A stretch of DNA of 64,000 bases from Desulfuromonadaceae bacterium (GTDB taxonomy: Bacteria > Desulfobacterota > Desulfuromonadia > Geobacterales > Pseudopelobacteraceae). Shown one piece after another: positions 14,248 through 42,307 of this stretch. Both the position numbers and the translations under genes were made by a program. Under the pieces are notes generated by a model. The model saw only the letters and a list, made by a program, of their open reading frames with translations, searched no databases and was not told where the DNA came from. Positions within the stretch are counted from its first letter, which is position 1. Every line of letters starts with the position of its first letter. The DNA is taken from NCBI GenBank assembly GCA_028712075.1, contig JAQTQX010000001.1:186001-250000 (forward strand). The letters run 5' to 3'.

Positions 14248-14631
14248 TTAAGCTACCTCGGGCTTTGTACGTAATCCGGCAGCAATGTTAAAGTCTATAT
14301 CTATGACAATCTTCAATTTTTGTGGCTCGGGATATGCGAGCACGTCAAACAGACGCTTGTCAATGAATATACTCAAATTCAGAATATCTTCGCGGATGTT
14401 TTTTGGCAGGGGGTTTTCAGGGTCAGAAAGCTCCGCCTGAAAAAAACTCCATACCTTCTGATTGAATTTGATTGCTTCCATCAACTTCTCGTCACGATCG
14501 TTACTATGCCAGTTATCCACAACTGACTTAAGCATCAATCCGGCACGGGTAAGAACGGATGCCTCAAGTTCACGTCCGGAGACTGAGTCTTTTTGCATGG
14601 AGCTATAGGAATTATAGGCATTTTGTTGCAT
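14248..14631 (-). CDS. flaF: Flagellar biosynthesis regulator FlaF
   Basis: This is a 127-aa protein. The N-terminal NAYNSYSSMQ, the GRELEASVLTRAGLML segment, and the KLMEAIKFNQKVWSFFQAEL / NPLPKNIREDILNLSIFIDKR blocks match the FlaF family. In Caulobacter FlaF is needed for flagellin synthesis and secretion and opposes FlbT. AAGGAG lies about ten bases before the ATG. It follows a TPR gene on the same strand (74 bp gap) and is 26 kb from flbT and flagellin, although the two regulators usually sit together. It is best known in Alphaproteobacteria, so its presence here is notable. Confidence 0.88.
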   Translation of the reverse strand: MQQNAYNSYSSMQKDSVSGRELEASVLTRAGLMLKSVVDNWHSNDRDEKLMEAIKFNQKVWSFFQAELSDPENPLPKNIREDILNLSIFIDKRLFDVLAYPEPQKLKIVIDIDFNIAAGLRTKPEVA

Positions 14632-14705
14632 GGCGGCAAGACTCCTTAAGGTAATTTACAGGGCTATATTAACGTCTTTATCCAAAAAAGCAAGTGTTCC
14701 TTGTG

Positions 14706-15893
14706 TTAAAACGGCGAGCCCCGATAACCATTATATTGATCTGCGAGTGGGTCCATTGTCTTACCCTTTACATCAGTCCCATTAAATTTGAATACAAGGT
14801 GCGAAGGATCTATCACACCATCACCTGACGAATTCTGGGTAAGAGTGAAGGCAAGCGTCGCTTCACGGGCGACCGGATCGTAGCTTACCCGTTGTGGTAA
14901 CGTTGGTGCTGCAATGTTTAACGGATTATAAAATCCGTTATTGTAAATTCCGGCAGTGCCACCGGATGCCTTGGAAATGGACCAATTAGTAATATTGGTA
15001 ACAGAGGACGCCTCCATATCGCTGTTAAAGACAAATTTTACGGTTACCTCTTTGCTGGCATTGGGTGTAATAAAGGTAGACGAATCGATAGCGAGAAGAG
15101 AAATGGGCCCAAGGTTGAGATTAAAGGAGCTGGTCACAGAATCGGCATAATATATTCCGGGTCTGGTTATCTGATCTGTCAGTTCGGTTGCGGAAATAAC
15201 GGCGTCCGAGGTCCCGATCTTGTTCAGACGTGCAATCTGTTCGTTGGTCTTGTCAAGATCCCCTATACCGGCGTATGCCTTTCCAAGTTCATTGATTGCC
15301 GCAGAGAAATCCTTTTTCAGCGTAGTAGCCTTCTTTAGATAACTAATGGCATCATCATATTTTCCTTGGCCATTCAGGGCCATTCCCAAGGCATAATACC
15401 CGTTGCCATCCTTCGGCTCCAATCTTATTACCTTGCGAAACTGCTTCTCGGCATCCACATACTTGCCACTTTTTGATTCAAGCAGGCCAAGAGTGTAGTA
15501 GGCGAGAGTATTTTGGTCGTTCTGTTTAATGCCGTCTCGTAATGATTTTTCCGCTTCGGCTGGTTTTCCCAGATCCACATAGAGTCCTGCAATATTTGTG
15601 TAGAGAGCATCCTGAGCACGATCCACTTTTAGAGAAAGTTTATACGTATCTATCGCTTCCTTTTTTTTGCCGAGCCTCGTATATGCATCGCCAAGGAATG
15701 TATAGGCCTCCGTTAATTCCGGTTTGTAAATTGAAGCCTGCTTGAAGGCCAAAGCAGCCTGAGAGTATTTTTTTTTCTGCATCAAAGCGATGCCATTGGA
15801 TAGCGCCGTGTTTGCCGAATTTTCTCTCAAAGTTTGCTGCATGGCGATAACGGAGAAAATGTCTGAACTTCCACTCGTAGCATCGATTGCCAT
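14706..15893 (-). CDS. TPR protein with C-terminal beta-rich domain, co-oriented with flaF
   Basis: This is a 395-aa protein. After about 30 residues, TPR units run to about residue 225 (repeated patterns such as AYTFLGDAYTRLGKKKEAIDTYKLSLKVD and YYALGMALNGQGKYDDAISYLKKA). The C-terminal 170 residues are Ser/Thr/Asn-rich and beta-like (VTVKFVFNSDMEASSVTNITNW), with an Ig- or cadherin-like look. No signal peptide is seen. AGGGGG is five bases from the ATG. The minus-strand sequence upstream (15992-15999) contains GCCGATAA, the sigma-28 -10 element, but the matching -35 is weak. Its place directly before flaF suggests a flagellar role such as a chaperone or export partner; this is inference. 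Confidence 0.7.
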   Translation of the reverse strand: MAIDATSGSSDIFSVIAMQQTLRENSANTALSNGIALMQKKKYSQAALAFKQASIYKPELTEAYTFLGDAYTRLGKKKEAIDTYKLSLKVDRAQDALYTNIAGLYVDLGKPAEAEKSLRDGIKQNDQNTLAYYTLGLLESKSGKYVDAEKQFRKVIRLEPKDGNGYYALGMALNGQGKYDDAISYLKKATTLKKDFSAAINELGKAYAGIGDLDKTNEQIARLNKIGTSDAVISATELTDQITRPGIYYADSVTSSFNLNLGPISLLAIDSSTFITPNASKEVTVKFVFNSDMEASSVTNITNWSISKASGGTAGIYNNGFYNPLNIAAPTLPQRVSYDPVAREATLAFTLTQNSSGDGVIDPSHLVFKFNGTDVKGKTMDPLADQYNGYRGSPF

Positions 15894-16014
15894 AACTGCC
15901 CCCTATTCGTTGGGAAACCCATCAAGGGCTAAAAAACGATTTTTGATGTTACCACAACAGAGATGTTGATGGTATAGTTATTCATATAATCTTATCGGCT
16001 ATAAAGGCGTAACA

Positions 16015-19000
16015 TTGAACTGCAATACTAATATTTCACTCTCTACAAATACTATGTCGCCTGACCAGCTTCTTCAAGAGGCTTTGCAGAAACACGAATC
16101 GGGTGATGTTGAGACGGCCGCTGAATTATATCGGATGTTGCTGACGGAATATCCATTTGTCTCGGCAGCATCTTTCAATCTGGGCAACATTCAAATGGAG
16201 CAGGGGCTATACGAAGAAGCTGAAAAGTCTTACCGGAATGCTCTTGAATACGAACCTGGTATAGTCAGGGCAAAACTCAATCTTGCCTTTGTTGTCCAAG
16301 AGCAAGGACGCTACGACGAAGCGATTGCTCTGAATGAAGAATTGATTAAAGATAACGATGAATTGCCTGAAGCCGCATTCAATCTGGCAACATTACGTCT
16401 TTTGACAGGTGATTTTGAAAGTGGGTGGAAAGGCTACGAACAAAGATTCAATACACTCAATCCGGTACCGCGCATGCATGATGATATCCCGGATTGGGAT
16501 GGGGAATCGCGCCAGGGACTCCACCTGCTGGTGTGCCTGGAACAGGGGTACGGAGACGCCATACAGATGAGCCGCTATATTCAGATTCTTGCAAACTCAG
16601 AACTTGCTGTCACTGTGGAAGCTCCGAAATCTTTGCACACGTTGTTCTCTTCAATCCCGGGAGTAAAGGAGTGCGTTGCCAGAGGTACTGATCTTCCTAG
16701 GGTAGATACAAAGATTCACATCATGAGTCTTCCTGGCATCTTGAAAACTTCTCTGGAAACTATTCCTACGGTTTCTCCTTTTATCTCTCAAGATCGACTC
16801 GTACAATTTTTCCGTACGCTACTTGCGAACAATGGCGGCCTCAAGGTCGGGATTTGTCTGTCCGGTCGGCTTGAATTGCCGGTTAACCGGAAGAGAAGAT
16901 GCCCGGAGTCCTTTATTAATACACTTTTGGCGACCGGGGGGGTAACTTTCATAAGCCTTCAGAAAGACCTGCCTATCACTGATGAGCGAGCCGTAGATCT
17001 TACCGGATATCTGACTGATTTCAGCGATACCGCAGCTCTGATAGAAAACCTCGATCTTGTCATAACGATTGATACCGCTATTGCTCATATTGCTGCGACT
17101 ATAGGAAAGCCAACCTGGCTTATGCTTCCATTTGTACCGGATTGGCGCTGGCTTCTCAAGCGCGACGATTCACCATGGTATCCCACTATGAGAATCTTCC
17201 GCCAGCAGGTAAGAGGTGAGTGGGAGCCGCTTATAGTGCGTGTTAAACAAGAGCTGGATATCATGATTTTCAATACCGCTGTGACGCTTATCAATCAGGG
17301 CGTGGCTTTTGATGAACAGGGCAATTTTGAAAAAGCACTTTCCTGTTACCGGTCCGCGATTGCGTACGATAAAGATAGTGCGCTGCTTTACTACAACATG
17401 GGGAACTCTCTGAAAAATATGGGAGAGTCCAAAAAAGCTGAAGAAGCGTATGAAAAGGCACTATCCATTAATTCACAGATAGCCGAAGCATGGCATAACC
17501 TGGCAATTTTATATCAGGAGCGTGGAAAACGGGAGAATGCATACAGGTGTATTGCGAATGCCTTGGCAATTCGCCCAAATTTTGCAGATGCACTTCATAC
17601 ACTTGGAGAGCTTTATCAGGCCGATGAGAGACTTCCCGAAGCGATAGATTCCTTTTTGAAAGCCGTCCGATCCGAGCCAGGCTCTGCTCGTAGCTGGAAC
17701 TCTTTGGGGATCGCCTACCAGAATGCGGAAGAAGACCGAAAAGCGGAAGAGTGCTACAGAAACGCCCTGAAACACGAAAATACACATCTTCATGCCCGTA
17801 ATAATCTGGGAGCGGCCCTTCTTACACTCAGAAAGGCACACGAATCCATCTACGTACTGGAACAGCTTGTAGAAATGGCACCAGACTACTATGACGGGCA
17901 CTGGAACCTCGCCTGTTCGCTACTCGCAGTGGGAAATTTTGAACATGGATGGGCTCAGTTTGAATACCGCTTGTTAAAGCACTCGCCAGTAGAGGAAGAA
18001 CATTGTGACATTCCGCGATGGGACGGTGTTGCTCCATTGTCCGGGAAAACGATCCTCTTGACCGGTGAACAGGCGTTTGGGGACACAATCCAATTTGTCC
18101 GATTTGCTCCGTGCCTCGCAGCATTGGGAACGCACGTGATTCTGGAATGTCAGGCCCCCCCCCTTGTCCCCCTCATGGCCGGAGCCGTAGGAGTTGACCG
18201 CGTAATCTGTCGTGGTGAAACTCTGCCGCACGTTGATTTTCGACTTCCATTATTGTCCCTGCCGTATAAGTTGGGAATCACTCCGGTGAGAATCGCTGAA
18301 AATTACCCCTATATCCATCCTGACCAGGAAAAACTCGGCTTCTGGAAGCAGCTGGTATCTTTGGATCCCGGTCTGCGGGTCGGTATCTGCTGGTGGGGGC
18401 GTCAAACCACGCGGAATCGTCGCAGAAGCTGTTCTCCTGATCTGCTGGTCCCCTTGTCAGAAGTATCCGGAATAACCCTCTATCGTCTGCAGGTTGGAGG
18501 CGAAGCACCATCTCCTCCATTTGAATTGATTGATCACACCGAAAAAATCAAGGATTTTGCCGATACAGCCGCTCTAATCAGCTGTCTTGATCTGGTGATT
18601 ACCATTGACACTGCGGTGGCTCATCTTGCCGGAGCACTGGGAAAACCGGTCTGGCTCATGTTGCCGCCAACCGGTGACTGGCGGTGGTTGTTAGAGGAGA
18701 AGGACTCCCCCTGGTACCCTTCAATGCAAATTTTTCGTCAGTCCAATGAGTTTGGATGGCGCACTGTTATTGATCGAATTGCCAAGAAGCTGAGACACGT
18801 AACCACTCCTTCCGTATATATGTATCGCCCCGGTTATGATTTCCCCGAATTGGATCATTTAGGGAAGCGCTTGATCCCGTTTTTGACTGATAACGACACA
18901 TTGGCTGAAGGTATCAATGCCAAAACAGTTACTGATCCGGAAGATGCCGACCTGTTTCTGTTCCCGTATTATCTGGAGAATCTTACCGAGTGGGTCACCA

Positions 19001-22000
19001 TTGAGGGTATGTGGCAATTGGTGGAAATGCTGCAGATGTTCAAGTCCAAAGAAAATCAGCACATCTTCTTTTCCGACCATGATACTGCTGCTCGCTATCA
19101 CACTACGTCATGGTGGTATCGCACCAGCATTAACATTTTGGATCGGGATCCCGGAGCTCTTCCACTTTGTTACCGTACCGATGACTTGTTTGATTATCTC
19201 CATTTTGACACTGACAGGATACGGTATCATGCCTCTTTTGTCGGTTTTCTTGGGACGAGAAAACAACGGGCACACATATTGGAAAATATCGCAAAGGAAT
19301 CACGACTCACGGTAATGATCGAAGCGACCGATGCTTTTTATGGACATTTGACGGCTGATGAAAAAATTGCGCGACGACAACGCTTCCTTGAAATATCTGC
19401 ACAATCTCTGTGTATCCTTTGTCCCTCTGGTGAGGGCACCAACTCGATTCGCTTCTATGAGGCACTTTCTCTGGGACGCCTGCCGGTGCTGCTTTCAGAT
19501 TGCCCGTTACCGTTTGAAGATGCAATTCCATACCAACGATTTGTCTGCCGCATTGCTCCCGAACATGCTGAAAACGCCGGGGAGATGCTCCTGAATTGGC
19601 TTTCCGGTATGGGGAGCGATAACCCTGTGGATCGCTGCAAGGAAGCCCGAAAAATATGGGAAGAGTGGTTTGCGCCCCCAGTGCTGCCTGATAGGCTTTG
19701 GAACGATTTTATCAGGACGCGTTTCAAGCGGGAAGCCCGGGAGAATGTTACGGAGCCTATTAATACGCCACATGACACCGAGCCACACTCCCCGAGGTCA
19801 CCGATTATTTATCTACAGCAGGGGCGGATTTCTGCAGCCGGGAACAATGTTTCAGAGGCTGAAAAGGCCTTTCTCAAAGCGATCAGATATGACCATCGAT
19901 GTTTTGAAGCCTATTTTGAACTTGGTTGCCTGCTCGCTTCTGCGGGGCGGTACCATGAAGCATCTGAGCGATTTTATGAGGCGTCGCTGCTACAGCCGGA
20001 TAATCCCGACATTTACCGCAGAGCGCTTACCTGCCTTGAGCAACTTGGGCGATTGAATGAGGCGGAATTTTGCAGAACGGAACTTTCCCGCATCGCAGAA
20101 CTACACCAACCCCGGATACTAGTTTCGGGAACTATTGCACCAGAAACGCATATGGATCTGGGCGATATTTTTCGGGAAGAAGAGCGTTGGGAAGAGGCCT
20201 TTGCAAGTTACTCTCAGGTCATTGCCATTGAACCCCGCAACCGGCTGGCGCAATTGCGGGCAGGGGGAGCACTTATTTTTCTTAACAGGCACAATGAAGC
20301 AGAGAGTTACCTCCGGCAGGCAGTGGCGCTTTTTCCGGATGATCCGGATTCTCACGTTAACCTCGCTTTTTGCCATCTTGCGGTCGGTCGCTGGCAAGAC
20401 GGTTGGAGGGAGTTTGAGTGGCGCAGAAAATATATTGCCGAAACTTTGCCCGATATCGCGGAGCTGCCGATACTGTCCGATCAGTCAGAAGTTCGGGGGA
20501 AAACGGTTTTAGTACATACGGAGCAGGGTTATGGCGATATGCTTCAGTTTGTACGATATCTGCACTTGCTGAAAGAATGCGGACCTGAAATTGTGTTGTC
20601 GGCTCCACAAAACCTGTGCAGGCTTTTCAGCTCCAGCAGATGCGCCATCAGGGTCGTTCCACATGGGGAAAAACTTCCAGCCACAGATTTTCAGACGCTG
20701 CTAATGAGCCTCCCCCTGGTTCTGGGTAAACTCCTCACGGCACCATTTGTTACAGATTCGTATGTAACCGCTGACAAGGAACTTGTCGAAATATGGCATA
20801 CCCGTCTTGCGGAACTTGAAGGGATCAAAGTCGGTCTTGCCTGGAAAGGACGTGATTTGGGGAAAAGCGGCTACCGCCGCTCTCTGAACTTTGAACAGCT
20901 TGCCCCCTTGCTTGAGGTCCCGGGATGTTCCTTTGTCAGTCTGCACCCGGAAGCTTTAGGGCCAGAGATATCCGGGGTAACGGATATGTCGCACTGCATA
21001 TCTGATTTTGCCGATACAGCCGCCATCATCAAGAACGTTGATCTGGTGATAACCGTTGACAGCGCGGTCGCCCATCTTGCAGGTGCGTTGGGGTGTCCCT
21101 GTCTGGTCGCTTTGCTGTACAGCCCTGACTGGCGGTGGTTCCCCCTGAATGCAAACAGCAGCCTCTGGTACCCTTCAATCAGAATCTATAGACAACCTGC
21201 ACCGGGTGAATGGCCACCGGTCGTCGAGAGCCTTGCATGTTCTCTTCGCGAAGAAATGCTTACCCGGAAGGGTAACGCCCTGCTAGAACATGGCAATGAA
21301 ATAGAAGCGCTGGCCTGTTATCAGGAGGCAGTAAGCCACAATGGCGCAACGGCTGCCGCATGGCTAAATCTGGGCGTACTGCTTCACAGATCTGGCAGAT
21401 TTACCGAAGGGCGCGATGCCATGCTGAATTCTGTACGCATAGACCCTGCGTATCCTGAGGCATGGCAGAATCTGGGTTTGCTTCAGCAGGCCCTTGGTGA
21501 CGTTACGGATGCCTGGCATTCGTTTCGCCGTGCTCTCGTTTTACGCCCGGACTACCCAACTGCGAAGTGGAATTTATCATTGCTGCAACTGCTTCTCGGC
21601 GATTACCGAGAGGGCTTCCGGAATTTCGAATTCCGTTTCCTGAAATCTCCGCCCACTCCAGTGCGTCACCAGAGTATCAAACGCTGGGAGGGAGAATACG
21701 TAGAGGGAAAGACGATTTTGGTACACGCAGAGCAGGGATACGGGGATACCATCCAGTTTGTCCGCTTCCTACCGTTGCTTGTGTCGAGAGGTGCAGTAAT
21801 CATTTTAGAACTGCAGGATCAGAGCCTGACCGAACTGTTACGGTCCATTGACGCTCCGATTACGGTAATAACCAGAAACGATGAAACGCCTTATGCAGAC
21901 TTTCAGATACCTTTGATGAGCCTTCCGCGTATCTTTGATATCACTCTGGAAACAGTTCAGGCATGCAAACCGTATCTGTGTCCTCCTTCTGATAAGGTTA

Positions 22001-22506
22001 AAGTGTGGGGAAACCACTTGGCCAAAGAGAGTGGGCTCAAAGTCGGTCTTGCCTGGAAAGGGCGGGATGAACATATAAATGATAGATTTCGATCATGTCC
22101 TCTGGAAGTGCTTTTGCCACTGGCAAAACTGAAAGGGGTAAGATACTATTCGCTTCAGGCCGGTGTTGGCAGAGAGCAGATAGAACCGCTCAGACAGCAA
22201 TTTGAGATTGATGATTTTTCAGATCTCATTTGCAGTTTTGACGATACTGCGGCTCTAATGGTAAACCTTGATCTAATAATAACGGTTGATACTGCAATGG
22301 CTCATCTTGCCGGTGCTCTGGGATTACAAACGTGGCTCATGCTTCCTTATTCGCCTGACTGGAGATGGGGGCTAAATAGTGCAACAACAGCATGGTATCC
22401 AACTATAACCTTATTTAGACAAGACTCGCCTGATGATTGGCACGGGGTTGTATCGAGGGTTGTAAACGAACTTTCCTGCCAACTATATAAAATTATTTCC
22501 AAGTAG
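16015..22506 (+). CDS. Giant modular TPR / GT9-like glycosyltransferase (four modules) with internal exostosin-like domain
   Basis: This is a 2163-aa cytoplasmic-looking protein. Four modules each carry TPRs followed by a GT9 (heptosyltransferase)-like domain. The N-terminal GT motif EQGYGDxxQ(F)xR occurs near residues 174, 684 (as EQAFGDTIQFVRF), 1502 and 1905. The C-terminal motif DT(S)AxAHxAGA occurs near 352, 865, 1682 and 2092, each followed by a DWRW...WYP signature. Between modules 2 and 3 (about 930-1245) is an exostosin/GT47-like domain with VYMYRPGYD, FPYYL and GTNSIRFYEALSLGRLPVLLSD. Modules 3 and 4 keep LAWKGRD; modules 1 and 2 diverge there (CLSGRLE, CWWGRQT), so some modules may be inactive. 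A TTG start at 16015 with AAGGCG upstream is used; ATG 16054 is the alternative. The substrate is unknown. Confidence 0.8.
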   Translation: MNCNTNISLSTNTMSPDQLLQEALQKHESGDVETAAELYRMLLTEYPFVSAASFNLGNIQMEQGLYEEAEKSYRNALEYEPGIVRAKLNLAFVVQEQGRYDEAIALNEELIKDNDELPEAAFNLATLRLLTGDFESGWKGYEQRFNTLNPVPRMHDDIPDWDGESRQGLHLLVCLEQGYGDAIQMSRYIQILANSELAVTVEAPKSLHTLFSSIPGVKECVARGTDLPRVDTKIHIMSLPGILKTSLETIPTVSPFISQDRLVQFFRTLLANNGGLKVGICLSGRLELPVNRKRRCPESFINTLLATGGVTFISLQKDLPITDERAVDLTGYLTDFSDTAALIENLDLVITIDTAIAHIAATIGKPTWLMLPFVPDWRWLLKRDDSPWYPTMRIFRQQVRGEWEPLIVRVKQELDIMIFNTAVTLINQGVAFDEQGNFEKALSCYRSAIAYDKDSALLYYNMGNSLKNMGESKKAEEAYEKALSINSQIAEAWHNLAILYQERGKRENAYRCIANALAIRPNFADALHTLGELYQADERLPEAIDSFLKAVRSEPGSARSWNSLGIAYQNAEEDRKAEECYRNALKHENTHLHARNNLGAALLTLRKAHESIYVLEQLVEMAPDYYDGHWNLACSLLAVGNFEHGWAQFEYRLLKHSPVEEEHCDIPRWDGVAPLSGKTILLTGEQAFGDTIQFVRFAPCLAALGTHVILECQAPPLVPLMAGAVGVDRVICRGETLPHVDFRLPLLSLPYKLGITPVRIAENYPYIHPDQEKLGFWKQLVSLDPGLRVGICWWGRQTTRNRRRSCSPDLLVPLSEVSGITLYRLQVGGEAPSPPFELIDHTEKIKDFADTAALISCLDLVITIDTAVAHLAGALGKPVWLMLPPTGDWRWLLEEKDSPWYPSMQIFRQSNEFGWRTVIDRIAKKLRHVTTPSVYMYRPGYDFPELDHLGKRLIPFLTDNDTLAEGINAKTVTDPEDADLFLFPYYLENLTEWVTIEGMWQLVEMLQMFKSKENQHIFFSDHDTAARYHTTSWWYRTSINILDRDPGALPLCYRTDDLFDYLHFDTDRIRYHASFVGFLGTRKQRAHILENIAKESRLTVMIEATDAFYGHLTADEKIARRQRFLEISAQSLCILCPSGEGTNSIRFYEALSLGRLPVLLSDCPLPFEDAIPYQRFVCRIAPEHAENAGEMLLNWLSGMGSDNPVDRCKEARKIWEEWFAPPVLPDRLWNDFIRTRFKREARENVTEPINTPHDTEPHSPRSPIIYLQQGRISAAGNNVSEAEKAFLKAIRYDHRCFEAYFELGCLLASAGRYHEASERFYEASLLQPDNPDIYRRALTCLEQLGRLNEAEFCRTELSRIAELHQPRILVSGTIAPETHMDLGDIFREEERWEEAFASYSQVIAIEPRNRLAQLRAGGALIFLNRHNEAESYLRQAVALFPDDPDSHVNLAFCHLAVGRWQDGWREFEWRRKYIAETLPDIAELPILSDQSEVRGKTVLVHTEQGYGDMLQFVRYLHLLKECGPEIVLSAPQNLCRLFSSSRCAIRVVPHGEKLPATDFQTLLMSLPLVLGKLLTAPFVTDSYVTADKELVEIWHTRLAELEGIKVGLAWKGRDLGKSGYRRSLNFEQLAPLLEVPGCSFVSLHPEALGPEISGVTDMSHCISDFADTAAIIKNVDLVITVDSAVAHLAGALGCPCLVALLYSPDWRWFPLNANSSLWYPSIRIYRQPAPGEWPPVVESLACSLREEMLTRKGNALLEHGNEIEALACYQEAVSHNGATAAAWLNLGVLLHRSGRFTEGRDAMLNSVRIDPAYPEAWQNLGLLQQALGDVTDAWHSFRRALVLRPDYPTAKWNLSLLQLLLGDYREGFRNFEFRFLKSPPTPVRHQSIKRWEGEYVEGKTILVHAEQGYGDTIQFVRFLPLLVSRGAVIILELQDQSLTELLRSIDAPITVITRNDETPYADFQIPLMSLPRIFDITLETVQACKPYLCPPSDKVKVWGNHLAKESGLKVGLAWKGRDEHINDRFRSCPLEVLLPLAKLKGVRYYSLQAGVGREQIEPLRQQFEIDDFSDLICSFDDTAALMVNLDLIITVDTAMAHLAGALGLQTWLMLPYSPDWRWGLNSATTAWYPTITLFRQDSPDDWHGVVSRVVNELSCQLYKIISK

Positions 22507-22754: not shown

Positions 22755-22778
22755 TTACTAAATTGAACGGTGGATAAG

Positions 22779-25626: not shown

Positions 25627-25665
25627 GAATGCTGTCTCGTGACACCTTTATGGAAGGTTCGCCAT

Positions 25666-33197: not shown

Positions 33198-33234
33198 CAA
33201 CTTGTAACGCTTATTTATTCGGTGGTTTTATTTT

Positions 33235-33462: not shown

Positions 33463-35505
33463 ATGGATTTTACCATGAACATTATGCTTTCCTATGTCGC
33501 ATATCCGGTTACAACAGCAGTTTATCTTGAACGGGCTCTTCGCAAACTGGGTAATGTTACGACAATAGGCCCTCGTTTCCCTGCAGAGCTGATTGAAAAG
33601 TGGAGTCTTCAGAATATGAAGCTCCCTTTGTATGATCAGATGATCTCCACTGACTTCACCCCGGATATGGAAACAGTACTTGCCGCTTTGCCCCCTGCCA
33701 ATCAACCAGATTTATACATCTGGGTCGAATCGGTTGGCGGGCACGAGCCAATCAATCTTTCTGCACTCCGCTGCCCGAAGATCTGCTATCTCATCGACAG
33801 TCATCTGAATCTTGAACACCAGCTTCTCTGGTCTAGACAATTCGATTACATTTTTATCGCCCAGCGTGAATATCTGAGCAGTTTTCGACAAATTAACCAA
33901 CGTTCCTACTGGCTGCCGCTTGGCTGTGACCCTGAAATTCATGGGTCTAAATCCATAGAAAAACTTTATGATGTCGGCTTTGTCGGAGCCCTTGCATTCA
34001 ATCCAAGGCGTCAGCAGTTGTTGGATAAGTTGGGAGAGGGGGTAAATCTGTATCGCGCCAGATGTTTCTGGACTGAAATGACGGGGGTCTTCGCAGCCTC
34101 CAAAATAGTCTTCAATACCTTTGCGCGGAATGATCTCAATATGCGCTTTTTTGAAGCACTTTGTTCTGGATCAATGCTGCTGTCCGACAGGGCTGTCGGG
34201 AGTGGACAGGAAGAACTGTTCCATGACGGTGAGGATTATGCCTGCTATTCAGATGCAACCCTTATTGAAACGGCGCGTTTTTATCTCGAAAATGATGAGC
34301 TTCGCGAAATGATTGCTGATCGAGGGCGCGCGGTAGTTCTTAATGCCCACACATACCTGCATCGCATGGAAGATATGTTTTCGATTGTCTGTGGTGACAA
34401 ACAGGACACGTTTTCAGCCGCTGAACTCAGGGAGCGGTCTCTTAAAGGGGTAGAACCACTTTTCAAGCAGAAGATTGCATCACACGTTGAGGTAGGAGGA
34501 GAGAGCCGTAGCTTTGTCATTCCTGTTCTTGATTACTCTCCGGCGAGTGAGTTCAATATTGCTACGCTTCTTCAGGCTCTTGAGAATATCTCCGGTGATG
34601 TCCTGATAGTTTTTAACTGTCAAAGCGTGGCTGATGAACTCAAGGGCCATCCAAGAATCAAGCGCTCCGCCATTATGACTGAAAACGTCGGGGTCTCCAG
34701 GGGTTGGAATATTGGTGTCAACATGGCGATAACCCCAAATGTATTTATCCTTAATGCAGATTTACACGTAGGGTTATCAACAGTTGCTGCGATGGAAGCT
34801 GCCTTGGCCGGTTTGCCCAAGGCAGCGTGTGTCGGACCGCAAGGCTCATTTGTCAACTACCCCCTTACAAAGGATTATCTCTATTTTGACAAAGGCACTT
34901 TCTGCGAACCGATTGTTGTAGATGCGGTTTCGGGATTCCTTTTTGCGGTAAAGAGAGAGCTGTTTTCGCCCGGCGGCCTTAAATTCGAAGATGCTTACTC
35001 TCCATGCTATTTCGAAGAGTGGGATCTCGGACTCCAGATCAAACAGGCAGGGCTCAGGAGTTATGTAATACCCACCACCGACTACACTCATCACTGGAGC
35101 GGGACTATTGCGGCACGGTCGGAAATCCCATTTATGGGAAGAAGCGAGACACCACAGAATATTTTAATGCGTAACAGGGTGCTTTTTTTGGCAAAATGGC
35201 GAGAAATTGCCTATCGGAAAGAGAACAACCCATTATTTGACAGCAACATCGGAACGTTTGCTTCAACTCGATTGCTGAGTATGTTGAAGACCGAAGACCC
35301 GGCAATTGTGGATGCCGCCCATCAGGTAGCAGCACTGGCTCCTGATCGTCCTGATCTGCAGATTCTCGCAGCCTTTGTGCTTTCACGCACAGGGAATCCT
35401 GAAGAAGCTCGCCCCTACTTGAGCATGGTAAAAGCATTCTTCCCCGGATTTCACTCGGATAAATATCTTGCAGAACTAACTTCAACTTATTTGGCAAGAC
35501 CCTAA
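33463..35505 (+). CDS. Two-domain glycosyltransferase: CgeB-like GT-B plus GT2 GT-A
   Basis: The protein is 680 aa. Residues 1-325 form a CgeB-like unit: MLSYVAYPVTTAVYLERAL, LYDVGFVGALAFNPRRQQLLDKLG, and NDLNMRFFEALCSGSMLLSDRAVGSGQEELFHDGEDYACY. Residues 345-600 form a GT2 unit: FVIPVLDYSPASEFNIATLLQAL, ENVGVSRGWNIGVNMAITPNVFILNADLHVG (acidic site), and SGFLFAVKRELF...YFEEWDLGLQIKQAGLR. The tail is helical, TPR-like. The first ATG (33463) or the one at 33475 could be used; the latter has GGA seven bases upstream. The two domains could add successive sugars. Confidence 0.8.
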   Translation: MDFTMNIMLSYVAYPVTTAVYLERALRKLGNVTTIGPRFPAELIEKWSLQNMKLPLYDQMISTDFTPDMETVLAALPPANQPDLYIWVESVGGHEPINLSALRCPKICYLIDSHLNLEHQLLWSRQFDYIFIAQREYLSSFRQINQRSYWLPLGCDPEIHGSKSIEKLYDVGFVGALAFNPRRQQLLDKLGEGVNLYRARCFWTEMTGVFAASKIVFNTFARNDLNMRFFEALCSGSMLLSDRAVGSGQEELFHDGEDYACYSDATLIETARFYLENDELREMIADRGRAVVLNAHTYLHRMEDMFSIVCGDKQDTFSAAELRERSLKGVEPLFKQKIASHVEVGGESRSFVIPVLDYSPASEFNIATLLQALENISGDVLIVFNCQSVADELKGHPRIKRSAIMTENVGVSRGWNIGVNMAITPNVFILNADLHVGLSTVAAMEAALAGLPKAACVGPQGSFVNYPLTKDYLYFDKGTFCEPIVVDAVSGFLFAVKRELFSPGGLKFEDAYSPCYFEEWDLGLQIKQAGLRSYVIPTTDYTHHWSGTIAARSEIPFMGRSETPQNILMRNRVLFLAKWREIAYRKENNPLFDSNIGTFASTRLLSMLKTEDPAIVDAAHQVAALAPDRPDLQILAAFVLSRTGNPEEARPYLSMVKAFFPGFHSDKYLAELTSTYLARP

Positions 35506-35528
35506 AAATTAGTAAGGAGTCCGGACGA

Positions 35529-36584
35529 ATGAAGGTTTCAATGCCTCTGGGAAGAGCCCACGGATGGGGGATAGCTGGAGAATATCTCAGCCGGGAGATT
35601 GCCAGGTTCCCTTTCCTTGAAGACGTGACGCTTCATTGTATCAAAGGGAACGACCTTCAACCGTTTGACCCAGGTCAGTGGGGCCGGATAAATATCGGGT
35701 ACTGTTTTTTTGAAGATGCCATCTCGGTTCAACAGTATGCCAGGGAAGCGGGGCGAAGATGGGATATAATCGTTGCAGGCTCACATTGGTGCGAATATAT
35801 ATTAAGAATGTGTGGTGTCCACAATTGTACCACGATACTTCAGGGAGTTGATCAGAACATCTTTTATCCCGGCCCCAAACAGGGACATCCAGATCTATTT
35901 ACGGTTTTTTCGGGGGGGAAGTTTGAAATTCGCAAAGGGCAGGATCTCGTAATTGCTGCGATGAAAATTTTTATGGAACGGCACGATGATGTGCTACTGT
36001 CCTGCGCTTGGCATAATCAGTGGCCGTTCTCAATGGCAACCATGGAGATTTCCGACACTATCCGGTATCGCCACAGAGAGGAAAACTGCGAAAAGCTGTT
36101 GGCGGAAACCCTTGATGGAAACGGAATTCCCCTCGACAGGGTTGTGCTGCATCCCCCACAGGATAACAGCCTGATGCGAACCGTGTACCTTTCATCGGAT
36201 ATTGGAATTTTCCCGAATCGGTGCGAGGGGGGGAATAACATGGTGATGTGCGAGTACATGGCGTGCGGTAAAACTGTCATTGCTTCCGATATGTCGGGGC
36301 ATGCAGATGTCATAACTGCTGAAAATGCCTTCCCGCTCAAAAAATATATACCGAAGCATTATCGCCACTACGCTGAAGGCTTCTGGTATGATGCGAACGC
36401 AGACGAGATTATTGATCTGCTGGAATATGCATATCTAAACAGGCGTGAATTACGTTTGAAAGGGTTGAAAGCGGCGACAGATATGGCTCGTCTTTCGTGG
36501 CATGATGCGGCTCGACGCTTCCACGCTATCGGATCGGCGCTTGTGCGGAATCACAGAGATTTTGATAAATTTCCATATACTTGA
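35529..36584 (+). CDS. Glycosyltransferase, GT4-like
   Basis: The protein is 351 aa. GRAHGWGIAGEYLSREIARF opens a GT-B acceptor domain; ILQGVDQNIFYPGPKQG, FTVFSGGKFEIRKGQDLVIAAMKIF and SDIGIFPNRCEGGNNMVMCEYMACGKTVIASDMSGHADV are the GT4 hallmarks (E-G-x-N...E in the donor site). AAGGAG lies nine bases before the ATG. Its 3' end overlaps the convergent GT41 gene by 59 bp (36526-36584). Confidence 0.85.
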   Translation: MKVSMPLGRAHGWGIAGEYLSREIARFPFLEDVTLHCIKGNDLQPFDPGQWGRINIGYCFFEDAISVQQYAREAGRRWDIIVAGSHWCEYILRMCGVHNCTTILQGVDQNIFYPGPKQGHPDLFTVFSGGKFEIRKGQDLVIAAMKIFMERHDDVLLSCAWHNQWPFSMATMEISDTIRYRHREENCEKLLAETLDGNGIPLDRVVLHPPQDNSLMRTVYLSSDIGIFPNRCEGGNNMVMCEYMACGKTVIASDMSGHADVITAENAFPLKKYIPKHYRHYAEGFWYDANADEIIDLLEYAYLNRRELRLKGLKAATDMARLSWHDAARRFHAIGSALVRNHRDFDKFPYT

Positions 36585-38190
36585 CTTCAAGTGAAGCAGT
36601 AAAACCCTTTTCATCGGTCAGACGAGAAGACATCAATTCGTCAGGGAGCGAATAGTGCAAACTGTTTAATCGATCAGGCTCGTTCGCCAAATCGATCGCA
36701 ATCTTGACATACTCCTCGGCAGTTTCTGCAATCAGTTCCTTTCGCCCAATCGACGTCAATAGAGAAACTCCGACTCTCGCTGCATGATGTTCCCCCACCA
36801 TGGTTACGACCGGCACCCCCATTGACAGAGCTTCGCAGGTTGTTGTGGTACCATGATACGGGAACGTGTCCAGAGCAATATCAACCTGGTTATAAAACGC
36901 CAGATGTGAGCCGCGATCCGGGGTTGAGGCAACAGTCACGACTCGGTTTGGATCAAGTCCCATTCGCTCTAACGTCATAGCTGTCGCTTCAGGATCAGCA
37001 AAGATCTCTGCTTTCAGAATAAGCCTTGAATTCGGCAGCGCTTGGAGGATTTGTATCCAGCAACCAACGATTGTCGGACTTGCTTTAGCCAGATTGTTGA
37101 ACGAGGCAAAAGTAATACTTCCATTATTGTTGGAAGACGGGGCGAATCGACGCGCCGGGCACGACTCATACCTTTTGAAACAGAGAAACGGGCCCGGAAG
37201 TCGCAGAAGCTGTTCGGTGTGGAAGCGTTCGGTAAGGCCCGGGGGGTCGGCAATAAAGTCGGAAATTCTGTAGTCTATTGCATTCATGCCGGTCGAGTGA
37301 GGATAGCCGAGCCAGGTCACCTGCAGTGGTGCGGGTCTGATAGCAAAGAGAGCGAGGCGATTCCAGGCCGTATATCCGGCAAGGTCGACTAATATCTGAA
37401 TACCGTCGTTTCGTATCAGTTTTAAGGCTTCAGAGTCCTCCACATTAGAAATATCCCTCCAATTAACCGGGATGCTCTTGATTCGATCGGTGACCTCATC
37501 CTGCTCTGGGTGAGTATGGTAACAAAACACTTCAAATCGGCTTCGATCATGGGAACGAATTACCGGCTCAATAAATGATGCCACAGAATGTTCCCTGAAG
37601 TCAGGCGAGACATAGCCGATGCGAATTTTTTTATGTGCCCTGAGTTGGCTATTACAAGTGGTGATCCGGTTATAATCGGTACTCCGGGCAAGATGGGCCT
37701 TGAATATTTCTTCAGGGCTCATTTTGTCGCTGAAGAGCAGTGTAAAAACAAGATTGTCATGTGCGGTGGATGAATTAGGGGCAATAAAAATTGCATCCTG
37801 CAAAAAACGGATGGAGTCGTCTATGCTGCCGAATCTCTTGTGCAGACGCGAGAGTTCAATCAACGTATTTACATGGCATGGATTACGCGGAAGAGATTGC
37901 TCGAGATAAGAGAGCGCTTTGGCAAATCGTTTTTGGTGAAAACAGACGCTTGCCAATCCGCAGAGTGCTTCTCCATCGTTAGGAACATATGAAAGACGGA
38001 TACGGGAAAACTGGTCAAGTTCGTCCCACTTCCTGTAATGCCGGCATAGATTAGACAGCGCGAGGTAATTGGCTGAATTGGCCGGGTCAGCCAGGAACAT
38101 TTTTGCAAGGAGCAACATTGCTTCATTACTGCGCCCGTTGGCTAAGGCTTCGTATGCCGATTCTCTCAATATTTCAAACAATCGGTTCAT
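36526..38190 (-). CDS. TPR protein with GT41 (SPINDLY/OGT-like) catalytic domain, copy A
   Basis: The protein is 554 aa. TPRs cover about 1-150. The catalytic part (about 190-545) has KKIRIGYVSPDFREHSVASFIEPV, LVDLAGYTAWNRLALFAIRPAPLQVTWLGYPHSTGM, DYRISDFIADPPG, FASFNNLAKASP, and DIALDTFPYHGTTTTCEALSMGVPVVT, the canonical bacterial SPINDLY/OGT donor site. It starts with ATGA overlap to the related copy B upstream. Together they lie divergent from flagellin. GT41 enzymes with TPRs modify Ser/Thr of proteins, and in Caulobacter a TPR-glycosyltransferase (FlmG) modifies flagellin. Flagellin is therefore the leading acceptor candidate, by inference. Confidence 0.88.
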   Translation of the reverse strand: MNRLFEILRESAYEALANGRSNEAMLLLAKMFLADPANSANYLALSNLCRHYRKWDELDQFSRIRLSYVPNDGEALCGLASVCFHQKRFAKALSYLEQSLPRNPCHVNTLIELSRLHKRFGSIDDSIRFLQDAIFIAPNSSTAHDNLVFTLLFSDKMSPEEIFKAHLARSTDYNRITTCNSQLRAHKKIRIGYVSPDFREHSVASFIEPVIRSHDRSRFEVFCYHTHPEQDEVTDRIKSIPVNWRDISNVEDSEALKLIRNDGIQILVDLAGYTAWNRLALFAIRPAPLQVTWLGYPHSTGMNAIDYRISDFIADPPGLTERFHTEQLLRLPGPFLCFKRYESCPARRFAPSSNNNGSITFASFNNLAKASPTIVGCWIQILQALPNSRLILKAEIFADPEATAMTLERMGLDPNRVVTVASTPDRGSHLAFYNQVDIALDTFPYHGTTTTCEALSMGVPVVTMVGEHHAARVGVSLLTSIGRKELIAETAEEYVKIAIDLANEPDRLNSLHYSLPDELMSSRLTDEKGFTASLEVKYMEIYQNLCDSAQAPIR

Positions 38191-40121
38191 CTGAAGTAGC
38201 GCTCATTATTCTTAAGATTATTGCACCATTGAATCCAGATGGATCTATACGCTTCTTCTAGGCGTGCGGTAAAGCTGACATTATCGCAGAGGGGACTGTT
38301 GAGCAATATGGTGCGCAAGTTGCGACGTAATGTTGTAAGTAGCGGAAGATTCGAAGCAAGGGCGACCGCTTTTTCAATATATTCTCCCGGATCGTTGGCT
38401 ATAAAATCCTGTAGGCCGACCGTTTCAAGCAGGCTCACTCCTACTCGGGAAAGATGGCTTCTCCCGGCAAGAGTAATAACCGGCACCCCCATGTATAAAG
38501 CTTCACAGGTGGTTGTGGTTCCATGATACGGGAACGTGTCGAGAGCGATATCAATACTGCGGTAAGCCTCCATCTGCTCAACAACTGAACGTGCATGGCC
38601 AAGGACGACAAGTCTGGATGCAGATTCGCTATTTAGTTCAAGTCTGTCACACAATTTATTTTTGATGCGGTCAGACTCCTGCCCTCTATAGCGAAGTACA
38701 AGCTGAGAGTCAGGAACACTCGCAAGTATGTGGCACCAGATATCAAGCAATGGTTCGTTGATTTTGCTGAAATTGCTCATAGAGCCGAAGGTGACATAGC
38801 CGTTTCGTGTAACCGGCGCTTCTCCTTCACGCGGAAAATCTCTGCCGGGATTGTAGCACAGAAAAGAAATGGGTAGCCTGAGGAGCTTTTCAGTGTGAAG
38901 ATGTTCGGTAAGCCCGGGAGGATCAGCTTTAAAATCAGTAATCCGGTAGTCCATTCCTGGCAATCCGGTAGTGTCTGGGTATCCTATCCATGTCGCCTGT
39001 ATCGGGGCGGGGCGGAGTGCAAACAATGAAAGCCGATGCTCTCCGGAATGTCCGGAAAGATCAATAAGTATATCTATTTCATCATTTCTTATCATCGCAC
39101 AAGCTTCAGTATCTGTAATGCCGGCGATTTCTCTCCAGATGATTTTATGATGCTGAATAAGTTGTTTGGTAACAATATCCTTCTTTAGCACATTCGAGTA
39201 GCAGTATATTTTGATTTTCTTTGGATCATGAGCAGCCAGCACCGGTTGAATAAAAAAAGACACAGCGTTCATCCTGAAATCACCGGATACATAGCCTATT
39301 TTGATTATGCGATCCGGCTCAGGTGAGTTTAAAAATGGCGGAATAGTCTCTTTCGAAAAATATGATTTCCCCCAGAGGTAATGTTGTCGAGAGATTTCTT
39401 CGGGAGTGATGTGAGGTAAATAGTGCAGATGGAATAATCTGTTTGATGCAAAGTGTCTCGCCTGTTCATAAATCGAAGAGCAATCCACTGACTTTCTAAA
39501 ATACTCAACTGAGTTATCTATTTCGCCTGTGTAGCAATAAAGAGCTGCAATTCGGTTAAAAACTTCGGACGGTGATGTGGGGCTCAAGTCAAGTAAATGC
39601 AGATAGCACTTAATGGCTTCATCATAATTAAATGAAATGGAATACAAGGTACCCAGTTGCATCCAAACATCGGGATTTCGTGGTTCTAAACGGAGTGCTA
39701 TATGGTAGTAACTGGCTGCATCATCAAAGCTTCCCAACTCTTTATAGGTAAGGCCGAGATTTATCAGGGCTGAAAAGTAGTTGGGATCCAACTCTGTAGC
39801 TCTTTCAAAAACCTGGACGGCTCTGCTTAGTGATTCCGCTTCGTCGCCATTATTGTTACGAGCCACCTCCAGCAGCGCAAGTCCATAATTGTTTAAAACA
39901 ACACCATTATCAGGGGCCAGTTTTGCCGCACGCCTAAAATAGTCCGCAGCCTCATGCCATCTGGATCTATAGAATGCAATATTACCTGATAAAAACAAGG
40001 CATCTAAATAGTTCGGGTCCTTACTGACAAGATATTGGCATAACGTATCTGCCTCGTTAAGTTTACCGATATTTGCTAGATGCTCCGCCTGGCAGAGCAA
40101 TTGCGTATAATGTTCGCGCAT
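38187..40121 (-). CDS. TPR protein with GT41 (SPINDLY/OGT-like) catalytic domain, copy B
   Basis: The protein is 644 aa. TPRs cover about 1-230 (ALFLSGNIAFYRSRWHEAADYFRRAAKLAPDN, ALINLGLTYKELGSFDDAASYY and others). The catalytic part (about 270-635) has IIKIGYVSGDFRMNAVSFFIQPV, LIDLSGHSGEHRLSLFALRPAPIQATWIGYPDTTGL, DYRITDFKADPPG, FGSMSNFSKINEP, and DIALDTFPYHGTTTTCEALYMGVPVIT. It is clearly paralogous to copy A; even the nucleotide sequence around the DTFPYHGTTTT motif (36837-36887 and 38508-38558) is almost the same. It begins 213 bp from the flagellin start on the opposite strand. A role in flagellin glycosylation is inferred. Confidence 0.88.
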   Translation of the reverse strand: MREHYTQLLCQAEHLANIGKLNEADTLCQYLVSKDPNYLDALFLSGNIAFYRSRWHEAADYFRRAAKLAPDNGVVLNNYGLALLEVARNNNGDEAESLSRAVQVFERATELDPNYFSALINLGLTYKELGSFDDAASYYHIALRLEPRNPDVWMQLGTLYSISFNYDEAIKCYLHLLDLSPTSPSEVFNRIAALYCYTGEIDNSVEYFRKSVDCSSIYEQARHFASNRLFHLHYLPHITPEEISRQHYLWGKSYFSKETIPPFLNSPEPDRIIKIGYVSGDFRMNAVSFFIQPVLAAHDPKKIKIYCYSNVLKKDIVTKQLIQHHKIIWREIAGITDTEACAMIRNDEIDILIDLSGHSGEHRLSLFALRPAPIQATWIGYPDTTGLPGMDYRITDFKADPPGLTEHLHTEKLLRLPISFLCYNPGRDFPREGEAPVTRNGYVTFGSMSNFSKINEPLLDIWCHILASVPDSQLVLRYRGQESDRIKNKLCDRLELNSESASRLVVLGHARSVVEQMEAYRSIDIALDTFPYHGTTTTCEALYMGVPVITLAGRSHLSRVGVSLLETVGLQDFIANDPGEYIEKAVALASNLPLLTTLRRNLRTILLNSPLCDNVSFTARLEEAYRSIWIQWCNNLKNNERYFR

Positions 40122-40240: not shown

Positions 40241-40267
40241 TAAAGTTTATTGATAATCTGGCGATAA
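40241..40267 (+). promoter_or_regulatory. Sigma-28 (FliA) promoter of flagellin
   Basis: TAAAGTTT at 40241-40248 and GGCGATAA at 40260-40267 are separated by 11 bases. This matches the sigma-28 consensus TAAAGTTT-N11-GCCGATAA in all but one position. Transcription would begin near 40274-40276, giving a 5' UTR of about 60 nt. Confidence 0.9.
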
Positions 40268-40334: not shown

Positions 40335-41156
40335 ATGGCAATCAGCGATATCTCCCTAACCGCAGGAATGAGGAACAATCTTCTCTCTCTTCAGGAGACC
40401 AACAAGCAGACATCAGTTACACAAAACAGGCTGGCAACAGGCAAAAAGGTTAATACCCCTCTGGATAATCCGACAAACTACTTTGCGGCCCAAGGTCACA
40501 TGCAGAGAGCTGGGGACTTGACCATACGTAAAGATGGCATGAGTGAAGCTGTTCAGATGCTGAAAGCTGCAGATGCAGGCCTTAAAGGTCTTCAAACATT
40601 GATTCAGTCCGCTCAGGGTGTCGCTTCTTCAGCTCTGTCGACAGCCAATACTCTTGAGCAGTCCGCATACGCTCACACCTTTAACACCCTGCTTTCGCAG
40701 ATTAACCAACTTGCCAGTGATTCAGGTTACCGAGGCACCAACTTCCTGACCAATGGTTCGCAGACTGTTGAGTTTGGTCAGCGCACTGGTGCTGCGACTC
40801 TTGGAATTTTCGGTTTCAATGCGACTGCTACAGGGTTGAGCTTGACAACTGTTGCAAGTGCAAACTGGAGTGCTGCCGCCCAGGTAACTACTGAGGCGGG
40901 AAAACTTGAATCTGCGCTCAGTACCCTGCGTACAAATTCAGCAGCTCTTTCGGCAAGTCTCAGCGTTGTAACAACCCGTCAGGAGTTTACAGACAGCCTG
41001 ATCAATACCCTTCAGGTTGGAGCAGACAATTTGACTCTGGCTGATACAAACGAAGAAGGCGCCAATATGCTGATGCTGCAGACACGGCAGAATCTTGGGA
41101 TTTCAGCATTAAGTATGTCATCGCAGGCAGCTCAGGCAGTATTAAGACTCTTCTAG
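40335..41156 (+). CDS. fliC: Flagellin, alphaproteobacterial-like type
   Basis: This 273-aa filament subunit has the two conserved flagellin ends. N-terminal D0/D1: ISLTAGMRNNLLSLQ, QNRLATGKKVNTPLDNPTNYFAAQ, AVQMLKAADAGLKGLQTLIQSAQ. C-terminal D1/D0: TTRQEFTDSLINTLQVGADNLTLADTNEEGANMLMLQTRQNLG...AQAVLRLF. The middle is short and Ser/Thr/Ala-rich (about 150-210), so outer domains are absent and O-glycosylation sites are plausible. The LATG-K-V-x-xx-LDNP-xx-(Y/F)F wording resembles flagellins of Rhodospirillales-type Alphaproteobacteria. It has a strong sigma-28 promoter and AAAGGAG eight bases before the ATG. Confidence 0.95.
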   Translation: MAISDISLTAGMRNNLLSLQETNKQTSVTQNRLATGKKVNTPLDNPTNYFAAQGHMQRAGDLTIRKDGMSEAVQMLKAADAGLKGLQTLIQSAQGVASSALSTANTLEQSAYAHTFNTLLSQINQLASDSGYRGTNFLTNGSQTVEFGQRTGAATLGIFGFNATATGLSLTTVASANWSAAAQVTTEAGKLESALSTLRTNSAALSASLSVVTTRQEFTDSLINTLQVGADNLTLADTNEEGANMLMLQTRQNLGISALSMSSQAAQAVLRLF

Positions 41157-41232: not shown

Positions 41233-41257
41233 ATCGTACTCTTAAGGGGGTATTCAG

Positions 41258-41902
41258 ATGAAAGTTGATATGAATTCACCGATTGCAGCCAATATTTCTA
41301 TAAACAGTATTGATGCTGGGAATCCGCTTATGAACAAGATGAAGTCAACTCTCCAGAAAGAGAAATCTTCTACGGGTAACGGCAACCAGATTCCGACAGC
41401 AAACGTAGATCCGGTGACCGTAAATCTGAGCCTTCCCAAGCAGACCGTTGCCGCATTGGAGCGCCTAGGAAACCTTAATGATTTCCTCAAACATGTCGCA
41501 ACTAACTTGACTAAAACAGACGATGGCTTGAAAACAGCCAACATCTCTGTCGAACAGATGAAGGAACAACTTGAAAAGATAGTTAAAAATTTCCCCCCCT
41601 TCGGCATCGAGAGTCAGGAGCGCAAGGAAATTCTTATGAGTTATAGTGCGATCCAGAAAGAAATTATCAAGATGACGATTCCTTCGCCTCCGCAACCTTT
41701 ATTGGATAAAGTAGAACATCTCTGGAATGATCTTTTTAGCGGCGTTGGCGGGCAGAGCTTGTCAACACCTATGGTTCCGCTGGATGCGCCTGATTCTCAT
41801 GTCAACTCCGCACTTCAGCGGCTTGATGGCACTCAAGCCCAGATTGAAGCCGTTCGCTCCGAGCTGGGTAATTCGCTGCTACTAAAGAAAGAGAGTAATT
41901 GA
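41258..41902 (+). CDS. Unknown protein between flagellin and flbT
   Basis: This is a 214-aa soluble protein not assigned to a named family. The N-terminal 60 residues are low-complexity and polar. The middle (about 65-150) is helical, with ISVEQMKEQLEKIVKNFPPFGIESQERKEILMSYSAIQKEIIKMTIP, a helical segment, PPF turn and second helix that recall a coiled coil in flagellar and filament-associated proteins. The end is again helical (LQRLDGTQAQIEAVRSELGNSLLL). AAGGGGG precedes the ATG. It lies 3 bp upstream of flbT, so a flagellin-linked role (chaperone, secretion or filament component) is likely by context only. Confidence 0.6.
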   Translation: MKVDMNSPIAANISINSIDAGNPLMNKMKSTLQKEKSSTGNGNQIPTANVDPVTVNLSLPKQTVAALERLGNLNDFLKHVATNLTKTDDGLKTANISVEQMKEQLEKIVKNFPPFGIESQERKEILMSYSAIQKEIIKMTIPSPPQPLLDKVEHLWNDLFSGVGGQSLSTPMVPLDAPDSHVNSALQRLDGTQAQIEAVRSELGNSLLLKKESN

Positions 41903-41905
41903 GAA

Positions 41906-42307
41906 GTGTCACTAAAGATTCGCCTGAAACCACATGAAAAAATACTTGTTGGACAGGCGGTTATCAATAGCGGTGAGAAGGCGGTTGAGTTCCTGATTGA
42001 AAACAGGGTCCCGATTCTGAGGGAGAAGGACATCATGAAGGAGGAGTCGGCAGATACTCCTTCGAAGCGCCTGTATTTTCTCGTGCAACTCATGTATGTG
42101 GATGGGGAAAACCTGCTACATTACCACGACATTTATTGGCAAAATGCGCGAGAAATAATTACTGCCGCACCAAGCACAAAAACATATATCGCAGAGGTAA
42201 GCGCCCGTTTATTAGCTCAGGATTTCTATCACGCACTTAAAGCAGCAAAGCAGCTTATCGATTATGAAGCCAAACTTGTTGCCAAAGCAGATAAATTACT
42301 ACTTTAA
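41906..42307 (+). CDS. flbT: Flagellar biosynthesis repressor FlbT
   Basis: The protein is 133 aa. SLKIRLKPHEKILVGQAVI, EFLIENRVPILREKDIM, RLYFLVQLMYVD and AAKQLIDYEAKLV match the FlbT family. In Caulobacter FlbT binds flagellin mRNA leader sequence and limits flagellin translation until the hook is complete. The GTG start lies 3 bp after the previous stop with no strong binding site, suggesting coupled translation. The stop overlaps the convergent 1170-aa transferase gene by 4 bp. Its partner FlaF is encoded 26 kb away. Confidence 0.9.
   Translation: MSLKIRLKPHEKILVGQAVINSGEKAVEFLIENRVPILREKDIMKEESADTPSKRLYFLVQLMYVDGENLLHYHDIYWQNAREIITAAPSTKTYIAEVSARLLAQDFYHALKAAKQLIDYEAKLVAKADKLLL

Follow-up and report, generated by a model that had tools for sequence, protein, structure and literature searches.

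A divided flagellin module in a Geobacterales genome

The DNA analysed here, hereafter the window, is a stretch of 64,000 nucleotides from a Desulfuromonadaceae bacterium of the order Geobacterales (assembly GCA_028712075.1, contig JAQTQX010000001.1; G000:C41:186001-250000 in our genome set), whose genome comprises 4.15 Mb in 53 contigs. It carries flagellin, flbT and flaF, the last separated from the other two by a run of glycan genes. FlaF, annotated as a flagellin secretion chaperone or regulator (14248-14631, minus strand, 127 residues; PF07309, E = 1.8e-32), passes the curated cut-offs of PF07309 (112.1 bits against 23.6) and PRK12794 (134.1 bits against 91). FlbT (41906-42307, plus strand; PF07378, E = 1.7e-40) is over the curated PF07378 cut-off (138.4 bits against 27) and below the NCBIfam equivalog cut-offs PRK12791 (129 against 153) and PRK00794. 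The flagellin (40335-41156, plus strand, 273 residues) belongs to its family by an N-terminal PF00669 match over the cut-off (E = 4e-10), with a C-terminal PF00700 match of 17.6 bits that is under the cut-off of 23.

These Pfam matches, all far above chance, bear out the positions that an earlier note, made from the sequence alone, had assigned to the three genes. The note placed FlbT directly downstream of flagellin; it does lie downstream, not directly so, because an open reading frame (ORF) of 214 residues, here called u214, intervenes. FlaF was put about 26 kb off, past a run of transferase genes, and the measured distance from flagellin is 25.7 kb; 10 of the 14 ORFs that separate flagellin from the TPR gene next to flaF fall in glycosyltransferase families. 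Both core genes described as neighbours, leuB (8839-9945; Iso_dh) and asd (7705-8805), were recovered. Of the proposed likeness to Rhodospirillales flagellins less survives: the flagellin does match the subfamily models PRK12688 and PRK14708, which we take to be alphaproteobacterial, at scores far below both cut-offs. Its identity to the flagellins of G131 and G140 is 84-85%, and 57-78% to those of other relatives with the same divided layout.

The host genome has a single FlaF and a single FlbT. No match to FliS, FliW or FliD was found in it, and it does not qualify as a carrier of the FliD/FliS/FliW module. Flagellin_N occurs at three places, namely the window flagellin, a short flagellin on C36 and C41:99338, which is read as FlgL. 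The search for other flagellin and fliS genes that the note had recommended thus returned the short second flagellin (G000:C36:88906-89274; L003), unlinked to any FlbT or FlaF, and no FliS.

A degenerate flagellin paralogue beside FlbT

u214 (41258-41902, plus strand) ends four bases before FlbT and is identified as a degenerate flagellin paralogue by hhalign, homologue profiles, a structure model and fold comparison. Aligned with flagellin by hhalign it reaches a probability of 96.3, where shuffles stay at or below 11.1, and a score of 69.6, a value that none of 20 column shuffles approaches (28.7 at most), and we accept it as a flagellin homologue. Its profile and fold resemble the flagellin D1 domain. 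Flagellin_N is found in 3 of 40 u214 homologues, the window copy not among them; that copy matches neither Flagellin_N nor Flagellin_C and has no recognizable D0 end segments. In its model the first 39 residues have a predicted local distance difference test score (pLDDT) below 50, and the last helix ends at residue 213. Judged by length, the one criterion applied, it is not a full-length filament-type flagellin.

The position of u214 directly before FlbT is seen in Geobacterales (38 of 41 loci), Nitrospirota (7/7), Hydrogenophilales (3/3), Desulfobacteria (6/10), loci given only as 'delta' (10/14) and others (3/4), and in none of 26 alphaproteobacterial and none of 3 Syntrophia loci; these shares do not equal natural frequencies, as they describe the 80 top-scoring among at least 566 relatives, to which plasmid loci and loci from the order were added, with a few genomes represented twice. 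Given this adjacency, u214 may be a flagellin-like partner of FlbT, as FljJ is in Caulobacter. An alternative, which we consider rather doubtful, is that u214 is not a regulator and instead replaces FliD as a structural protein, be it a minor component of the filament, a junction protein or a cap-like one. A D1-like protein kept beside flagellin in FliD-less genomes would suit such a role; the alphaproteobacterial and Syntrophia loci without u214 beside FlbT, the missing D0 segments and the low-confidence N-terminus of the window copy argue against it.

Two filament kits that rarely share a genome

Of the 141 Geobacterales genomes analysed, 89 have FlbT, 90 have FlaF and 88 have both, and within the window's genus FlbT is present in 28 of 39. 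Over the cut-offs, FliS occurs in 13 of the 141, FliW in 13 and FliD in 12. FlbT co-occurs with FliS and FliD in a single genome, G085, and with FliW over the cut-off in none, so that both FlbT and FliS are present in just 1 of the 101 genomes with either. When the 114 genomes with FlhA are considered, 87 have FlbT, 12 have FliS alone and 15 have neither. Fisher tests of the exclusion give p values of 3.5e-8 (the 114 FlhA genomes) and 8.6e-7; because these ignore kinship, state changes on host trees are the better measure, and between FliS and FlbT there are 7 on the RpoB tree (37 genomes) and 6 on the FlhA tree (40 genomes). The pattern extends to an even sample of the phylum: over the cut-offs, FlbT is found in 18 of 257 genomes, FliS in 134 and FliD in 134, and neither FliS nor FliD reaches the cut-off in any of the 18 FlbT genomes, 6 of which come from the window's order.

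The edges of the replacement can be seen where congeners differ in type. In genus g22, seven matched genes on the flhA side of the locus are 68-94% identical between G047 (FlbT type) and G051 (FliS type), against 47% for FlgK and 40% for FlgL, and the filament genes that follow flgL in G047 have no match in G051. Three further G047 genes beside flgL (62-94%) reappear in G051 beyond the FliS module, in opposite orientation. FlhA lies about 9 kb from flgK in both genomes, yet follows the host. A second pair, G031 and G040 of genus g21, gives the same picture: four matched flhA-side genes are 63-96% identical, with several ORFs unmatched, FlgK falls to 42% and FlgL to 37%, and the filament genes beyond them are without a match. 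Across g21, g22 and g28, trees of FlgL and FlgK (22 genomes) split exactly into 10 FliS-type and 12 FlbT-type genomes, with support of 100/100 and 96/97.

Exchange within the order

The window's genus is unbroken in the RpoB tree (37 genomes, support 100) and in the FlhA tree (40 genomes, 99). A tree of flagellin, u214 and FlbT (35 rows, with G085 twice) requires six changes for the same genus, and its unity is rejected (approximately unbiased (AU) test, p = 0.000128). Since the host markers keep the genus together and the module does not, exchange within the order follows. Exchange is evident in the case of the window's genus, though the precise course of events is not. The closest modules to that of the window are found in G131 and G140, followed by that of G011, which belongs to another family. 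The genomes in which flaF stands apart from flbT, ten in all, form one group in a FlbT plus FlaF tree (93, not starred), which FlbT by itself recovers weakly (74). What the earlier note proposed as the transfer of a whole module therefore holds for movement between Geobacterales lineages, and not for an arrival from Alphaproteobacteria. We also observed a pair, G011 and G012, with nearly identical FlhA and filament modules from different clades; it is a candidate for a recent swap, if the 11.6-kb G012 contig is rightly binned.

Two other histories could produce such a pattern. In one, both kits and both the joined and the split flaF loci were present in the Geobacterales ancestor and were lost differentially, with no transfer. 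We judge this unlikely. Duplicates of the kind it predicts exist: G124 has two flaF copies, one joined to flbT and one linked to the TPR protein described below, and G085 has two FlbT operons in addition to FliS and FliD on a 3.2-kb contig. Both kits would nevertheless have had to persist across several genera, yet only one of the 101 genomes with FlbT or FliS retains both; the 6 to 7 switches of kit counted on RpoB and FlhA and, binning permitting, the G011/G012 pair also argue against loss alone. The other, which we find quite improbable, is that FliS, FliW and FliD are present in FlaF/FlbT genomes as diverged homologues that escaped detection. FliD is a variable family, and four FlbT genomes (G122, G125, G134 and G138) have FliD_N matches under the cut-off. 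Against this, the same models recover FliS and FliD in just over half of the phylum sample and in species congeneric with FlbT genomes, and in the two genus pairs the genes at the corresponding place have no match.

Occurrence beyond the order and the question of origin

The flagellin-u214-flbT-flaF operon recurs in loci named Geobacterales, Desulfobacterales, Nitrospirota and Hydrogenophilales, and the module also in loci named Syntrophales. A FlbT plus FlaF tree of 100 rows unites the 41 Geobacterales rows in one starred group, which also takes in a single row from Nitrospirota (SH-like approximate likelihood-ratio test (SH-aLRT) 97). In a flagellin tree of 101 rows, a branch (98) sets Alphaproteobacteria apart from the rest, and 39 of 40 Geobacterales rows group with one Nitrospirota row at 80, not starred. 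Both trees were built quickly and include some long branches in Alphaproteobacteria, and the deep order is settled by neither. The FlbT-FlaF pair of L114 (Nitrospirae bacterium GWC2_56_14) falls inside Geobacterales, which suggests either that the pair left the order by transfer or that the sequence was wrongly binned.

A direct move of the module from Alphaproteobacteria into this genome, followed by its division by glycan genes, is already contradicted by the present data and hardly credible: FlaF and FlbT are best known from Alphaproteobacteria, Caulobacter alone among 14 control genomes has a FlbT match, and the weak flagellin matches noted above point the same way, but the module is found in most of the order and in the four other groups just named, the Geobacterales rows are not nested within Alphaproteobacteria, and u214 stands beside FlbT in nearly all Geobacterales loci and no alphaproteobacterial one. 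The note itself had named routine occurrence of the trio at the same locus in close relatives as evidence against its proposal. The trio is indeed routine in the order and frequent in the genus; sameness of locus did not hold for the one congener compared, G097, which differs in its flanks and shares almost no synteny over 20 kb either side of the window outside the module and its glycan neighbours. Separately, Methylorubrum extorquens pCMU02 (L080, 4133-6405) carries a flagellin flanked by two flbT genes on a 22.6-kb plasmid, possibly a small mobile filament cassette.

The split flaF layout and its glycan island

Coordinates place flbT next to flaF in the majority of the 88 genomes that have both. 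In ten genomes (G000, G089, G097, G011, G116, G117, G121, G125, G131 and G140), which by taxon codes span two families and six genera, flaF is instead found behind a TPR protein on the opposite strand, with 3 to 34 kb separating it from flbT. The interval contains no glycan gene in G089 and one or two in G116 and G117, and at the other extreme holds islands of tens of kilobases. The later division by glycan genes that the note proposed is not an event of this genome: the split is common to ten genomes, and in G089 it exists without any glycan gene in between. Other arrangements exist: G072 and G074 have flaF beside the TPR protein, and a FlbT profile search found no FlbT in either, and G086 and G093 have flaF on the opposite strand without that protein. 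G116 and G117 each have an extra FlbT far from the module.

The protein in question, 'TPR-Ig' (14706-15893, minus strand, 395 residues), adjoins flaF directly upstream on the same strand. Pfam TPR matches, alignment with relatives, a structure model and Foldseek matches to TPR proteins identify a TPR superhelix followed by a beta domain that is conserved at the C-terminus; this domain has no match in Pfam, and 'Ig' is a working name. A profile of it also picks up genes close to flagellin in loci outside Geobacterales, so TPR-Ig may be an old part of such modules. In L095, L098, L104, L108 and L117 (at about 1.8-3.9 kb of each) these homologues lie upstream of flagellin in divergent orientation. 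In the window, a DDE transposase fragment (PF13586; 13956-14243) adjoins the 3' end of flaF.

Between TPR-Ig and flagellin are 14 ORFs, of which 10 match glycosyltransferases over the cut-off (3 of them TPR-GT41 fusions), one matches a methyltransferase over and one under the cut-off, and two have no match. By Pfam, the first encodes a 2,163-residue protein of TPR, GT9 repeats and GT47 (16015-22506, plus strand), homologues of which adjoin TPR-Ig in relatives. A run on the same strand (22770-36584) includes a TPR-GT41 gene (23437-25626), GT1, GT2 and Glyco_trans_1_2 genes, the two methyltransferase matches and the two ORFs without a family. It is followed by two O-GlcNAc-transferase-like TPR-GT41 genes on the minus strand (36526-40121; PF13844, 1.1e-60 and 3.6e-49). 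GT41 has a GT-B fold, and TPR with PF13844 in 23437-25626, 36526-38190 and 38187-40121 gives each the FlmG-type layout of N-terminal TPR and C-terminal GT-B domain. TPR-GT41 homologues adjoin flagellin in several relatives, and the two minus-strand genes are candidate flagellin glycosyltransferases. Past flbT lies a triple GT2-TPR glycosyltransferase (42304-45816, minus strand; Pfam and synteny), a homologue of which occupies this place in the nine other split-type genomes. The glycan island may travel with the module.

Both halves of the module are preceded by a match, with one mismatch, to TAAA-N15-GCCGATAA, which we take to be the sigma-28 consensus: one at 40241-40267 (plus strand), 67 nt upstream of flagellin, the other at 15992-16018 (minus strand), 98 nt upstream of TPR-Ig-flaF. 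Allowing at most one mismatch in this pattern scan, these two are the best sites of the 64 kb, against 0.23 expected, and 1 of 100 shuffles reaches that number. With relatives included, sites of this quality occur in 7 of 29 upstream regions, compared with 11 of 2,000 random 350-bp stretches of the window. Because the spacer of the pattern was adjusted, we regard this evidence as suggestive. flaF may still be co-regulated with flagellin despite the split, and sigma-28-like sites at both operons would offer a possible reason why the split does no harm.

Discussion

Our findings indicate that the window probably holds the Geobacterales form of a distal-flagellum module that is inherited in the order, exchanged between its lineages and, in some species, replaced by a FliD/FliS/FliW module with matching FlgK and FlgL types. 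Gene content, mutual exclusion, conflicts between trees and the drop in identity at flgK-flgL in two same-genus pairs are the observations behind it. The roles of the parts would follow those in Caulobacter. One sigma-28-type promoter, if active, would drive flagellin-u214-flbT and a second TPR-Ig-flaF; FlaF would stand in for FliS as the chaperone of flagellin and FlbT for FliW in translational control, and the TPR-GT41 enzymes of the island would probably glycosylate flagellin. FlgK and FlgL, which form the hook-filament junction, come in two types, each matching one kit.

Several points weigh against this reading. First, the exclusion is imperfect: of the 114 genomes with FlhA, 15 lack FlbT and FliS alike, and 6 of these are at least 90% complete (the other nine fall below 90%; among the 15, two have FlaF and one has FliW), while many genomes in the counts are draft metagenome-assembled genomes. 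G085 has both kits, with two FlbT-FlaF operons, FliS and a partial FliD (L182, L183 and L184), and is either a genome with both or a contaminated one. For Brucella, which has FlaF and FlbT, a review lists a FliD gene from KEGG (PMC8781033), and the exclusion may fail outside the phylum. Second, trees that include flagellin unite the ten split genomes with five joined ones (15 in all, starred), and a FlaF-only tree is poorly resolved and does not clearly agree with the rest of the module. Third, the FlgL-like gene of the window genome is about 127 kb from the module (C41:99338 against 226374), so an in-situ swap of the kind seen in g21 and g22 cannot be shown for this genome. Finally, 11 of the 29 upstream regions have no sigma-28-like site better than four mismatches, and the spacer was adjusted after a first scan that gave no excess.

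A wider reading, which we offer tentatively and think less likely than not, joins these strands: the distal flagellum (FlgK, FlgL, filament, cap or no cap, chaperone and translational regulator) would be a unit of exchange on a vertically inherited motor, with u214 as a dedicated truncated flagellin mimic that acts as a co-repressor with FlbT or substitutes for FliD. Congeners that share a motor and differ in filament kit are a natural experiment on which hook-junction, chaperone and cap parts must match, and the pairs open two questions: how filaments grow without FliD, and whether an exported mimic of flagellin serves to control flagellin translation. Our results also correct the view of FlaF and FlbT as a mark of alphaproteobacterial ancestry. 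A literature search, with subscription papers mostly outside its reach, brought up nothing on FlaF/FlbT of Geobacterales and no account of a comparable kit swap.

Among the closest known systems is that of Caulobacter crescentus, in which, according to PMC7591256, FlaF is a secretion chaperone that binds flagellin and directs its export, and FlbT acts in repression with FljJ. FlaF and FlbT (Pfam), TPR-glycosyltransferase fusions near flagellin and a FlbT-linked flagellin paralogue recall its FlaF/FlbT/FljJ/FlmG set. Unlike in the alphaproteobacterial loci, u214 here stands between flagellin and flbT, and it is a truncated flagellin-like protein, whereas FljJ is described as exported into the filament. 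The window's glycosyltransferases match GT41, and their likeness to FlmG is one of TPR and GT-B layout, not of comparison with FlmG itself. The fla1-type cluster of Phaeobacter inhibens and relatives likewise links fliC, flaF and flbT, and FliD is reported absent in P. inhibens (PMC12363192); unlike the present module, that cluster is alphaproteobacterial and, in Cereibacter sphaeroides, clustered with CP1. The FliC-FliD-FliS-FliW module does the same job of chaperone, translational control and filament, and adjoins flgL in congeneric species, but FlaF/FlbT genomes other than G085 lack FliD, FliS and FliW over the cut-offs and have FlgK and FlgL of a separate clade. FlaF/FlbT has been called a possible analogue of CsrA-FliW (PMC4894983).

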